The notes under the pieces are model-generated. The model was not told the origin of the DNA. It did no database searches and saw only the letters and a list, made by a program, of their open reading frames with translations. From Quadrisphaera setariae (GTDB taxonomy: Bacteria > Actinomycetota > Actinomycetes > Actinomycetales > Quadrisphaeraceae), in the NCBI RefSeq assembly GCF_008041935.1, contig NZ_VKAC01000010.1, positions 62,001 through 126,000 of the forward strand: 64,000 nt of DNA. The letters are read 5' to 3'. Made by a program: the position numbers and the translations under genes. Shown here piece after piece: positions 3,663 to 50,344 of this stretch. The stretch's first letter is position 1. Every line of letters begins with the position of its first letter.

Positions 3663-4004
3663 GTGTTCGACTCCGTCAGCTCCAACGCGCTGCAGAGCGC
3701 CCTCGACGGTCTGGCAGCGCGCCAGCGCGCCACCGCCGACAACATCGCGAACATCAACACCCCCCACTACCTGGCCGCCCGCGTCGATTTCGAGGGCGCG
3801 CTGCGCTCCGCCGTCAACGGCGGCACCGGGGTCGCCCGCGCCACCGAGGGCCGCTCGACGGACCCGACGCGCGAGGACGGGAACAACGTCGACCTCGAGA
3901 CCGAGACGCTGTCCAGCATCGACACGCAGCTGCGCTACCAGCTGCTGACGCAGGCGATCTCGAACAAGCTCACGTCCGTCCAGACCGCGCTGCGCACGAG
4001 CTGA
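3663..4004 (+). CDS. flgB: Flagellar basal-body rod protein FlgB
   Basis: 113 residues. I chose the GTG at 3663 over a longer frame because GGAGG sits at a good distance upstream and the protein then begins MFDSVSSNALQSAL, as FlgB proteins do. FlgB is the most proximal rod subunit. The signature RATADNIANINTPHY (helical N-terminus followed by the NIAN-T/P motif) is present, with a matching C-terminal helix (RYQLLTQAISNKLTSVQTAL). It opens the rod/hook operon and is followed 11 bases later by flgC. Confidence 0.95.
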   Translation: MFDSVSSNALQSALDGLAARQRATADNIANINTPHYLAARVDFEGALRSAVNGGTGVARATEGRSTDPTREDGNNVDLETETLSSIDTQLRYQLLTQAISNKLTSVQTALRTS

Positions 4005-4015
4005 GGCGGCGGACC

Positions 4016-4432
4016 GTGGGACTCTTCGACGCGATGGGCGCTGCGGGCAGCGGCATGACCGTGGCCCGCAAGTGGATGGACGCGATCAGCGACAACCTCG
4101 CCAACATGAACAACGCGTCGCGCACCAGCGGCGACGCCTTCCGGCAGCGCTTCGTCACCGCGCGCGCCGTCGAGTACGGCTCCGACCACGGCAACCAGGC
4201 CGGCGGGGTCCGGGTCACCGGTGTCCAGTTCGGCAGCGGCGCGGGCCGCATGGTCCACGAGCCGGACAACCCGCTGGCCGACGAGAACGGCTACGTCAAG
4301 TACCCCGACATCGACCTGGCCAGCCAGATGGGGCAGCTGATCATGACGCAGCGCGCCTACCAGGCCAACGCCGCCGTGGTGGACCGGGCCAAGAGCTCCT
4401 ACGAGGCCGCGCTGCAGATCGGAAAGAAGTGA
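4016..4432 (+). CDS. flgC: Flagellar basal-body rod protein FlgC
   Basis: 138 residues from GTG. FlgC is the second proximal rod subunit. The N-terminal rod motif (KWMDAISDNLANMNNASRT), the internal HEPDNPLADENGYVKYPDID segment and the C-terminal MTQRAYQANAAVVDRAKSSY helix are all typical. Length is normal for the family. It sits between flgB and fliE, which starts two bases after its stop codon. Confidence 0.96.
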   Translation: MGLFDAMGAAGSGMTVARKWMDAISDNLANMNNASRTSGDAFRQRFVTARAVEYGSDHGNQAGGVRVTGVQFGSGAGRMVHEPDNPLADENGYVKYPDIDLASQMGQLIMTQRAYQANAAVVDRAKSSYEAALQIGKK

Positions 4433-4433
4433 G

Positions 4434-4844
4434 ATGAGCATCCCCGCCCTCGACGGGCTCTCCAGCGTGCTGAACGGGATGCAGGGGCTCGGGTCGACCA
4501 GCGCGACCGGCTCCAGCACCGGTGCGGCAGCGGTCACCTCCCCGTACACCTCCGGCGTCACGGCCACCACCGCCACCTCCGGCACGGGCACCGCGGCGGG
4601 CGTCGGCGCGGTGGGAGCCACGGGCTCCAGCTTCGCGGCGACGCTCAACTCGAGCCTCGAGAACGTGCAGCGCCTCCAGGCCAACGCCTCCGACCTGGCC
4701 GTCCAGGCCGCCACCGGAGACCTGGACGACGTCCACGACTACATGATCGCGGCCGCCAAGTCCTCCATGGCCACTGAGGTCACCGTCGCCATCCGCAACA
4801 AGGCCCTCGAGGCCTTCAACGACATCATGAGGATGCAGGTCTGA
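4434..4844 (+). CDS. fliE: Flagellar hook-basal body protein FliE
   Basis: 136 residues. FliE joins the MS ring to the rod. The first 60 residues are a low-complexity Ser/Thr/Ala/Gly linker; the conserved part is the C-terminal half, with SSFAATLNSSLENVQRLQ and the family ending VTVAIRNKALEAFNDIMRMQV. The stop overlaps the fliF ATG by one base. The N-terminal extension makes it about 30 residues longer than enterobacterial FliE. Confidence 0.93.
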   Translation: MSIPALDGLSSVLNGMQGLGSTSATGSSTGAAAVTSPYTSGVTATTATSGTGTAAGVGAVGATGSSFAATLNSSLENVQRLQANASDLAVQAATGDLDDVHDYMIAAAKSSMATEVTVAIRNKALEAFNDIMRMQV

Positions 4845-36356: not shown

Positions 36357-36429
36357 GCGCCCGTAGCTCAACGGATAGAGCATCTGACTACGGATCAGAA
36401 GGTTGCAGGTTCGAGTCCTGCCGGGCGCG
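36357..36429 (+). tRNA. tRNA-Arg (anticodon ACG)
   Basis: A 73-base cloverleaf. Acceptor GCGCCCG pairs with CGGGCGC; the anticodon arm TCTGA-CTACGGA-TCAGA gives ACG at 36390-36392; the T arm has GGTTCGAGTCC. It reads CGN arginine codons after A-to-I editing. The 3' half is partly duplicated at 38424, suggesting use as an integration target. Confidence 0.95.
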
Positions 36430-36435
36430 CTCGTT

Positions 36436-36495
36436 GAGACAGCGACGCAGAAGGCCCCCGCCCACCACGGCGGGGGCCTTCTGCGTCGCTGTCTC
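36436..36495 (+). terminator. Very long perfect terminator hairpin after tRNA-Arg
   Basis: Two perfect 27-base arms (36436-36462 and 36469-36495) with loop CACCAC, starting seven bases after the tRNA. The right arm (GGCGGGGGCCTTCTGCGT) recurs alone at 38459-38476. Confidence 0.85.
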
Positions 36496-36530
36496 GTCCT
36501 CGTGTCTGTCCCGAGGCTCGCTGGGACCAG

Positions 36531-36593
36531 GAAACCTGCAACAAGCGAAGTTTCCATATTTCAAACCTGGAAAGCCTGCTCGTTGTAGGTTTC
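36531..36593 (+). promoter_or_regulatory. Nested inverted repeats, possible autoregulatory operator
   Basis: Outer arms GAAACCTGCAAC (36531-36542) and GTTGTAGGTTTC (36582-36593) pair at 11 of 12 positions; inner arms TTTCCA (36551-36556) and TGGAAA (36568-36573) pair perfectly. The block is A/T-rich in a very GC-rich genome and ends six bases before the start of a winged-helix protein gene, the usual place for an operator. Confidence 0.45.
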
Positions 36594-36598
36594 TGACT

Positions 36599-38386
36599 GT
36601 GCAAGGAGTTGACCTCGACGCTGTGGTCGCGGCCATGCGAGCCGAGGGCAACGACTTGGCGGACGTCGAGGCGAAGCGGGCCCTGGACGGGTTCCCCGAC
36701 TCCATCGCTGAGACCCTGTCGGCCTTCAGCAACACGCCCGGCGGTGGGCTTCTGGTCCTCGGCCTGGATGAGCGCTCCGGCTTCTCCTCGGTGGGCGTGT
36801 ACGACCACGTCAGGGCTCAGGCGGCCCTGGCGAGTGCCGCTCGGCGAAAGGTCGACCCTCCAGCCACTTTCACCAGTGAGGCCGTCGACTTCGAGGGTCA
36901 TCGGCTCGTCGTGGCGCGGGTCCACGAGGTCTCCTCCGCCCACAAGCCGTGCCGTGTCAAGGCTTCTGGCAGGGCGTACCTGCGTTCTTACGACGGTGAC
37001 TACCCCCTGAGCGCCGTGGAGGAGCAAGCGCTGCTCGCAGGGCGAGGCACCCCCCGCTTCGACGATGAGCCGGTCGCAGGCGCTGCCTATGAAGATCTCT
37101 CGAAGGATCTCGTCGAGTCCTACGTCGAGGCGTGCCGAGCGACACCCGGGCCGCTCGCGACGATGAGCGACCAGGAGGTGCTGTTCCGGACGGGTGTGCT
37201 CGTCGGCGATGAGCGCACGCCCTCGGTGGCTGGTCTCCTGCTGCTCGGCGTCTACCCCCAGCAGTTCCTTCCGAACATCGTCATCCAGGCATCCTCGGCA
37301 CCGCACCCCTCGGACCCTCCAGGAACCAGGGCCGGGGACGCTGCGCGCTTCGACGGGCCGATCCCCAGGATGCTCGACGAGGCGTTGCGCTGGATCCAGC
37401 GCAACACGCGTCGGCGCTTGCGGTCGGGAGCCGACGGTCACAACCGTGACGAACCCGAGTATCCGACCGTCGCCGTCCGTGAGCTCCTGAGCAACGCGCT
37501 CATTCATCGCGACCTGGGCCCGCACGCCATGGCCGAAGCGATCACGGTGAAGCTCGAGCCTCGGCAACTGGTCATCGCCAACCCGGGCGGGCTCTACAGC
37601 CTCACCGTCGACCGCCTCGGGAAGGAGGGGGTCTCATCGCTCAGGAACCAGAGGCTCGCCCGCATCGGCCAGAACGTGCGCATCAGTTCCGGGAACGCGC
37701 GCGTGGTGGAGGCGCTCGCCACGGGGATCCCGACGGTGCTGGCCGAGCTCACCGCGGCGGGCATGACCAAGCCCCGCTTCCACGACCAGGCGATCCGCTT
37801 CGCGGTGCAGGTGCCGAACCACACGCTCCTAGGAGCGGACGACCTGGCCTGGCTCGCGCGGCTGTCCTCCGCTGCTGACCTCAGCGACGTCCATAGGCAT
37901 GCGCTCGTGATCATGAGGCACGGTGGCGAGCTCACGAACCGAGCCCTCAGGGAGACGTTCCCCATGGACTCCCGCGAGGCGCAGGCCACCCTCCGCAGCT
38001 TGGTCGACCTCGGTCTCGTGGACGGCGTCGGTCTGGCGGGCGGCCGCACCTACCGCCTGGCTGCTCGGGCTTCGCTGGCTGGCGAGTCTCTTGCGCACAC
38101 GGACACCACGCCATCGGCGACTGCGACGGAGGTGGCGGTGCCCACTCCCCCCATCCGCGGGAGGCAGGTGGCGCCACGACACCCAGGAGCACGGGCGGAG
38201 AACATCGAGCGGATCCTGGACGTCCTCCGAGCCGGCGAAGCCACGGCCGCTGAGTTGGTGGATCGAGCGGCGCTGACCCCGAACCAGGTGTCGTACGCGC
38301 TGCGGCAGGGGGTTGCGGAGGGCGTCGTGGTGCGCCGCGGAGGCCAGGGACGCCGGACGACCTACAGCACTCCCGCACGAGAGTGA
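36599..38386 (+). CDS. AlbA_2/GHKL ATP-binding protein with winged-helix C-terminus
   Basis: 595 residues from GTG at 36599 (GTG at 36623 also possible); the open frame continues upstream through the terminator and tRNA and cannot be coding there. The N-terminal Schlafen/AlbA_2 domain shows VEAKRALDG, TLSAFSNTPGGGLLVLGLDE and AYLRSYDGDYPLS. A GHKL-type ATPase domain follows at about 285-410 (VAVRELLSNALIHRDLGP, LVIANPGGLY). Two helix-turn-helix-like segments close the protein. The family (COG2865) is described as transcriptional regulators and often occurs in defence or mobile regions. Its GC content is visibly lower than that of its neighbours. Confidence 0.85.
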   Translation: MQGVDLDAVVAAMRAEGNDLADVEAKRALDGFPDSIAETLSAFSNTPGGGLLVLGLDERSGFSSVGVYDHVRAQAALASAARRKVDPPATFTSEAVDFEGHRLVVARVHEVSSAHKPCRVKASGRAYLRSYDGDYPLSAVEEQALLAGRGTPRFDDEPVAGAAYEDLSKDLVESYVEACRATPGPLATMSDQEVLFRTGVLVGDERTPSVAGLLLLGVYPQQFLPNIVIQASSAPHPSDPPGTRAGDAARFDGPIPRMLDEALRWIQRNTRRRLRSGADGHNRDEPEYPTVAVRELLSNALIHRDLGPHAMAEAITVKLEPRQLVIANPGGLYSLTVDRLGKEGVSSLRNQRLARIGQNVRISSGNARVVEALATGIPTVLAELTAAGMTKPRFHDQAIRFAVQVPNHTLLGADDLAWLARLSSAADLSDVHRHALVIMRHGGELTNRALRETFPMDSREAQATLRSLVDLGLVDGVGLAGGRTYRLAARASLAGESLAHTDTTPSATATEVAVPTPPIRGRQVAPRHPGARAENIERILDVLRAGEATAAELVDRAALTPNQVSYALRQGVAEGVVVRRGGQGRRTTYSTPARE

Positions 38387-38423
38387 CGAGGGCTGCGGCT
38401 CTGCCCCTCGTGCGCTCCGGCGC

Positions 38424-38476
38424 CTGACTACGGATCAGACAGCTCCAGTCCGAGCCCTGGCGGGGGCCTTCTGCGT
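38424..38476 (+). repeat. Degenerate duplicate of tRNA-Arg 3' half and its terminator arm (att-like)
   Basis: CTGACTACGGATCAGA (38424-38439) equals tRNA-Arg bases 36384-36399, a weakened T-arm copy follows (CAGTCCGAGCCCTG), and GGCGGGGGCCTTCTGCGT (38459-38476) equals the right arm of the terminator after the tRNA. About 50 bases between are missing relative to the original. Duplication of a tRNA from its anticodon loop on is typical of site-specific integration; no integrase gene lies between the copies. Confidence 0.65.
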
Positions 38477-38724
38477 GGAGGTGTCGGTGGCGGCTCGACA
38501 TGGCGTTCAGCGAGGCGATCCCCCACAGCGGCTCGGCGCTGAGCAGCGTGACAGGAGTTCAGCATCGAAGGGTGGGGCCTTGCGGGGTGAGTCGGGCCAG
38601 TCCGGGATCGAATTCCCCCGGGGGAGTCCTGCCGTGCTCGACGCAGCCGGAGCGAGGCGGTGACCAGCAGCACGTCCCGACGGGGATGGTCCTGAGCGGT
38701 GGTGCAGCTGGTCCAGAGCCACTT

Positions 38725-47523: not shown

Positions 47524-47572
47524 TCGGCGGAGGCTGCGAGGTCACCGCACGTCCACCTCGACGTCCCCCTCA

Positions 47573-47597
47573 GATCTTGACTCGTTCAGGAACAGCG
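47573..47597 (+). promoter_or_regulatory. Possible FurA autoregulatory box
   Basis: The segment GATCTTGACTCGTTCAGGAA just upstream of furA resembles, from memory, the FurA operator of mycobacteria and streptomycetes (ATCTTGACT-type core). TTGACT could also serve as a -35. Its place 20-40 bases before the furA start fits autorepression of furA-katG. Confidence 0.45.
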
Positions 47598-47613
47598 ACC
47601 AGGATCGACCCCG

Positions 47614-50344
<2,731 letters not shown>

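Follow-up and report, generated by a model that had tools for sequence, protein, structure and literature searches.

A one-gene islet at tRNA-Arg(ACG) in Quadrisphaera setariae, probably a CIME-like remnant carrying a Schlafen-type gene

In the sections of PMC5704250 and PMC7563491 that describe them, CIMEs are elements with flanking att repeats at the end of a gene but no integrase or transfer genes, and the classical examples from Streptococcus span 1.2-13 kb, carry cargo and undergo tandem accretion with other elements. AICEs integrate at the 3' ends of tRNA genes, tRNA-Arg included, and tandem insertions and a three-repeat case at a tRNA-Arg gene are recorded in the relevant part of PMC3218068. 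Proteins made up of a Schlafen RNase, a minimal histidine kinase and a wHTH domain are described in the portion of PMC12839542 devoted to them from at least 1017 taxa, where they stand next to BREX and related systems.

The window examined here, a stretch of 64,000 nucleotides from a Quadrisphaera setariae contig (NZ_VKAC01000010.1), contains a 2 kb islet beside a tRNA-Arg(ACG) gene, with a single called gene between the tRNA and a partial second copy of its 3' region. The nearest named relative of the window genome (G000) is Quadrisphaera granulorum, and five further Quadrisphaera genomes (G001-G005) were used for comparison, making six in all. The features of the islet are given below, with the GTG start of the gene being an assumption.

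36357..36430, + strand: tRNA-Arg(ACG), attL side and integration target, found with ARAGORN; an integrase gene lies directly downstream in G001, G003 and G004
36388..36449, + strand: att core, beginning in the anticodon loop and delimited by a 62-bp fragment (100% identity) in G004
36436..36495, + strand: intrinsic terminator of tRNA-Arg(ACG) with perfect 27-bp arms
36532..36592, + strand: putative operator, three half-sites (two direct, one inverted) before the GTG
36532-36546: half-site AAACCTGCAACAAGC, direct
36563-36575: half-site AAACCTGGAAAGC, direct
36578-36592: half-site GCTCGTTGTAGGTTT, inverted
36599..38386, + strand: sole islet gene, 595 aa, with Schlafen AlbA_2, GHKL-type ATPase and C-terminal winged helix or helices; GTG at 36599 (assumed), stop at 38386
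38424..38486, + strand: second copy, read as a decayed attR, with an exact 16-base anticodon arm, a degraded T arm and the right terminator arm
38457..38508, + strand: possible relic of an older element beyond the islet, with 53 aligned bases 87% identical to the terminator-integrase end of the G004 element

The second copy begins with an exact 16-base match to the anticodon arm (CTGACTACGGATCAGA; 36384-36399 and 38424-38439), continues through a degraded T arm at about 38445-38460, and ends with an exact 18-base match to the right terminator arm (GGCGGGGGCCTTCTGCGT; 36469-36486 and 38459-38476) that extends to 38486 with 86% identity over 28 bases. The two arms of the original terminator, 36436-36462 and 36469-36495, are perfect over 27 bp each, and the left arm is missing from the second copy. 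The tRNA and terminator matches are colinear with the original, and the longest exact matches seen in 500 dinucleotide shuffles were 14 (tRNA) and 16 (terminator) bases. All three parts had been reported at this position in an earlier note made from the sequence alone.

That note had also described a single gene of lower G+C content between the repeats, and this was confirmed (69.4% for the gene and 74.0% for the whole window), though a G+C content as low was found in 8 of the 208 segments of this size in the window. The third-position G+C of the islet gene is the third lowest among the 41 called genes of at least 200 aa in the window, with the genes at 3935-4714 and 47542-48267 (0.79 and 0.83, respectively) lying below it. 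No integrase, transfer or mobilisation gene was found in the islet, and no relative of the tRNA-Arg integrase found in the congeners was detected in G000 at E<=1e-30, in line with the absence of an integrase noted earlier. The 11 Phage_integrase matches in G000 are of other kinds and located elsewhere in the genome.

Examination of the same locus in the five congeners revealed a Phage_integrase gene directly after tRNA-Arg(ACG), in the opposite sense, in three of them (G001, G003 and G004). Each of the three also holds a tRNA 3' fragment, in no case a whole tRNA, that starts at tRNA base 32 in the anticodon loop. In G004, the fragment is on the same contig, 57.7 kb from the tRNA, while the link between tRNA and fragment in G001 and G003 is inferred, as the fragments sit on other contigs. 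Base 32 corresponds to position 36388, and the exact tRNA match in the window starts 4 bases before this att start. In G002, the terminator of tRNA-Arg(ACG) is intact and a search at E<=0.001 found no further tRNA-Arg 3' fragment, and this is apparently an empty site; a suspect fragment in this genome was rejected as it is a tRNA-Gly gene with its terminator. G005 was left out of the judgement as both contigs end at the tRNA. Relatives of the tRNA-Arg integrase (E<=1e-30) are encoded in four of the five congeners. In a search of 13 genomes of the family, G007 gave only a weak match, to a different tRNA.

The locus comparison that had been proposed thus yielded integrases, an apparently empty site and, in one genome of another genus, different cargo. 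The earlier suggestion of a hotspot whose contents vary is borne out by the integrase next to this tRNA and the 3' fragment in three of the five congeners, in which large, integrase-bearing mobile elements use this insertion site, and by that other cargo. Nor do all relatives carry the gene and the second fragment, which had been named as the finding that would speak against integration, as no ortholog of the islet gene was found in any of the five congeners, two of which have only partial matches (29% and 27%). The other cargo is a one-gene islet at tRNA-Arg(ACG) in G008 (L075:13117-14499), where a gene for a 231 aa protein with an SfLAP match below threshold is followed 1.2 kb downstream by a decayed tRNA 3' fragment (76%). 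Among named genomes, two of the 80 loci listed via the upstream gene hold this tRNA.

Homologs of the islet gene were sought in 394 genomes of the class, including the window genome (E<=1e-40, with up to three candidates scored per genome), and a match was found in 33 of them, giving at least 45 places with the window included (at least 44 others). Flanks were analysed for 42 homolog loci; G312:C49, a partial match, was left out, and G280:C187:80956 lies inside locus L132. A contig scan of named genomes with the islet gene found no close homolog, and distant matches in 69 plasmid and 31 phage records included none covering 80% of the query in one place.

The layout closest to that in the window is in G210, where tRNA-Arg(CCT) is followed by one homolog and then by an exact 43-bp tRNA 3' half. 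In G237 (L288:11942-13469 and L148:1-10478), tRNA-Arg(CCT) is followed by an integrase gene, split over two overlapping frames (or by sequencing error), then by Xis-like (by eye), RepSA-like and FtsK/SpoIIIE genes, other genes, the homolog and a 43-bp attR identical to the tRNA. This is a decaying AICE with the homolog as the last gene before attR. G319 also contains an AICE, with its attR just before the homolog, which is therefore outside the element, and in G100 the homolog appears by eye to be just outside an AICE-like element. Genes of the int, RepSA-type rep and FtsK-type tra kinds are thus present in G237 and G319 but not in the window islet. A tblastn scan of the 42 homolog loci and L160 found AICE-type genes at 4 of 43 (L117, L119, L136 and L148) and none at the other 39.

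At other loci the homolog is associated with different targets. A tRNA fragment of the Gly(CCC) type in G321, and one of the Pro(CGG) type (by eye) in G081, is located 220 to 350 bp after the homolog, and G321 contains, in addition, a complete tRNA-Gly(CCC) gene and a further fragment on a different contig. In G373 (L144:7807-10856), the homolog is inside the ribosomal protein operon between two 557-bp copies (97.7% identity) of a sequence that starts at the stop codon of the homolog and spans part of rplE and the S14 gene. In G174, the end of a polyketide-synthase-type gene is repeated over 153 bp (94.8%). In G328 (L142:5810-14027), the start of an HhH-GPD gene is present in four copies that delimit small islets, one carrying the homolog, one an RHH antitoxin-like gene (just under the cut-off) and one an NYN gene. 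Three 43-bp tRNA-Arg(CCT) 3' fragments in a row were observed upstream of the homolog in G359 (L121:13427-16236), perhaps an array of small insertions.

At 7 of 42 homolog loci, the gene is flanked on either side, at up to 1.2 kb, by direct repeats 35 bp or more in length, compared with 0.96 loci on average and never more than 5 in 2000 draws of random placement in the same loci. A tRNA 3' fragment was found within 700 bp of the homolog at 5 of 42 loci (mean 0.70 and maximum 4 in 2000 such draws), and the fragment scan gave no match on 717 kb of mononucleotide-shuffled sequence. As the two sets share no locus, 12 of the 42 loci have a repeat or a fragment, and the other 30 have neither close by. 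The repeats range from 39 to 557 bp in length. L132, L141 and L142 seem to have the HhH-GPD target in common and are not independent, and the weaker cases are L127, with a repeat of only 39 bp at 90%, and L128, with its fragment on the other strand. A fragment at L155, 5.8 kb from the gene, resembles a chance coding match and was rejected. A full tRNA gene accompanies the homolog at 1 of 29 short loci, by a rough estimate no more than expected by chance, and the association is with tRNA 3' fragments.

We consider it likely that the islet is a CIME-like remnant that has kept its att ends but lost its integrase and transfer genes, and in which the far end has decayed. An integrative element specific for tRNA-Arg(ACG) would have inserted by recombination at the anticodon loop, rebuilding the tRNA from its own copy, so that the original 3' half came to lie at the far end of the element. 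Apart from one cargo gene, the element would then have lost all its functions, and attR would have decayed as well, thus the islet is probably now fixed. The earlier reading of the locus as a minimal cargo islet is supported, as it has one gene and no integrase. G237 and G210 may represent intermediate and parallel forms of the window islet, though the deletion step itself was not seen, as no element with an ortholog was found at tRNA-Arg(ACG) in the relatives. Points against the remnant reading are the match starting 4 bases early, the likeness of the sequence right of the second copy to the G004 element, the homologs outside elements in G319 and (by eye) G100, the 30 plain loci and the 39 loci with no AICE-type gene.

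Like CIMEs, the window islet has direct-repeat ends, with attR decayed, and lacks an integrase and transfer or mobilisation genes. It differs from those in Streptococcus in being actinobacterial, in having a single gene and a decayed attR, and in that the same gene family recurs in such islets at several target genes. The target type, a tRNA-Arg 3' end, is shared with AICEs, but int, xis, rep and tra are absent. The kind of element is already known, and what appears to be new is the single-gene form, the fact that it recurs with one family, and the half-sites upstream of the gene; a literature search, mostly outside subscription journals, found no prior account of this combination. The locus would represent an integrative element that has apparently been reduced to a single gene, with members of the same family left over, or carried, at several target genes unrelated to one another. 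Should the family be a defence or addiction module, its retention in islets would be explained and the question becomes testable.

Comparison of homolog pairs indicated how far DNA homology extends beyond the gene. L130 and L157 (97.2% identity) share 235-245 bases to the left and 1 base beyond the stop, and L125 and L128 (95.6%) share 90 bases to the left and none beyond the stop. Sharing on the right is longer in L126/L128 (56 bases), L117/L119 (83) and L133/L140 (163-190), L132/L137 share 315 bases to the left and 414 to the right, and L124/L126 and L143/L146 have longer common flanks. With the spc operon as a yardstick, the homolog was closer than the operon in 12 of 14 pairs with gene identity above 84%, a selection that favours close genes, and the margin was below 3 points in four. 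Large differences were found for G296/G029 (gene 97.2, spc operon 82.7), G029/G100 (95.6 and 82.7) and G100/G154 (95.6 and 85.0), while the gene was less alike than the spc operon in G174/G193 (84.8 and 94.4) and G174/G100 (85.4 and 90.5). Mismatches in both directions would fit with horizontal transfer.

Two unrelated events could also account for the locus: an older element would have left the second tRNA fragment as its relic, and the gene would have entered afterwards and separately, e.g. by homologous recombination, between the tRNA and this relic. To its right, the second copy is flanked by sequence similar to the int-proximal end of the G004 element, which lies between the terminator and the integrase gene at the same tRNA, thus the fragment may belong to an older element, a possible relic of which is just beyond the islet to its right. 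A second left-end-like relic was also seen by eye after the tRNA fragment in G004 itself, and tblastn matches to an integrase to the right of the islet were found only at E above 2. The homologs just outside AICE-like elements in G319 and G100 agree with a separate insertion, as do homologs at unrelated loci that have only the upstream region and ORF in common. However, G210 has the same layout, one gene between a tRNA and an exact 3' half, at a different tRNA, and the extra relic is equally explained by tandem accretion of remnants of the type described in that section of PMC5704250, making two events rather unlikely. A local duplication or chance repeat beside an ordinary resident gene would suit the short and degraded second copy, but is exceedingly improbable given that the match lengths were never reached in 500 shuffles, that fragments of the same tRNA occur in relatives and that the congeners have no ortholog of the gene.

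The end of homology at the upstream repeats and stop codon in L130/L157 and L125/L128, and gene identities far over those of the spc operon in G296/G029 and G100/G154, raise the question of whether the gene itself is the mobile unit, its movement brought about in trans or by its own product, rather than what is left of a larger element. The targets are varied, including two tRNA-Arg genes, tRNA-Gly- and tRNA-Pro-like fragments, a polyketide-type gene, an HhH-GPD gene and the ribosomal operon. However, the protein includes no recombinase family that could be found, the repeats vary more widely in length than would be expected of one enzyme, and the arrays carry other cargo too. The homolog is ordinary AICE cargo in G237, the common flanks are longer in other pairs such as L132/L137 and L133/L140, and in the two G174 pairs the spc operon is more similar than the gene, thus we regard this explanation as highly unlikely. 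A related proposal, that operator and gene together form a one-gene mobile unit, moved in trans or with the help of its own product and now fixed in the window, is quite unlikely; such a unit would insert, throughout Actinobacteria, at the ends of tRNA genes and of protein genes.

Whether remnant or not, the islet has retained a gene for a protein with Pfam matches above the cut-offs to SLFN_AlbA_2 (E 2.1e-12) and HATPase_c_4 (E 3.9e-13) and a MarR_2 match barely over the cut-off (27.4 against 27). The order of AlbA_2, HATPase_c_4 and winged helix is that of the Schlafen-GHKL-wHTH proteins, and of the Schlafen RNase-minimal histidine kinase-wHTH proteins as described in that portion of PMC12839542, though the window gene stands alone in its islet and the genes described there are adjacent to BREX. 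A profile built from 12 homologs has matches to MarR-like and ArsR-like chains and weak ones to Schlafen chains (E 2.9e-4 to 0.007, with no single stretch passing alone). Further sequence matches were to PDB 3lmm, an uncharacterised protein, for the GHKL part and to PDB 2kyy, a RecG-related protein, for the AlbA_2 part.

Across 42 aligned family sequences, E24, K26 and E58 are kept in at least 98% and the GHKL residues E295 and N299 in all 42, while D19 is kept in at least 90% of a 12-sequence alignment but in less than 90% of the 42. E24, K26, E58 and D19 may be the equivalents of Schlafen catalytic residues. The product is probably a self-regulated bacterial Schlafen-type enzyme, and our best guess, about as apt to be wrong as right, is an ATP-gated, self-repressed RNase, because of the weak Schlafen profile match and the conserved E24, K26, E58 and GHKL residues. 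PADLOC gave only partial matches to pAgo (E 1e-17), Aga_SIR2 and Csa3, and the PHROGs matches were to a 'DNA helicase' family (E 8.8e-49) and a Ren-like exclusion family (E 1e-5). By analogy with its family, the gene may have a role in defence.

As half-site repeats are found upstream of 27 of 43 family members and the proteins have C-terminal winged helices, it is likely that members of this family repress their own promoters via the upstream half-sites, which remain putative. In the window, the Schlafen-type (AlbA_2) putative RNase-GHKL ATPase-winged helix protein would act on 36532-36592 and would be released or activated by stress such as phage infection. The count refers to repeated 10-mers (p<0.05) in the 130 bases upstream, with the window included, and was obtained with 40 shuffles per sequence, for which the smallest possible p is 0.024. 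Repeats were detected in 14 of 168 upstream regions of other genes at the same loci, and 16 of the 43 family members have no significant repeat. From the half-sites, autoregulation of a widespread protein family can be predicted in concrete, clade-specific terms, their sequence varying by clade while the direct-direct-inverted arrangement recurs.
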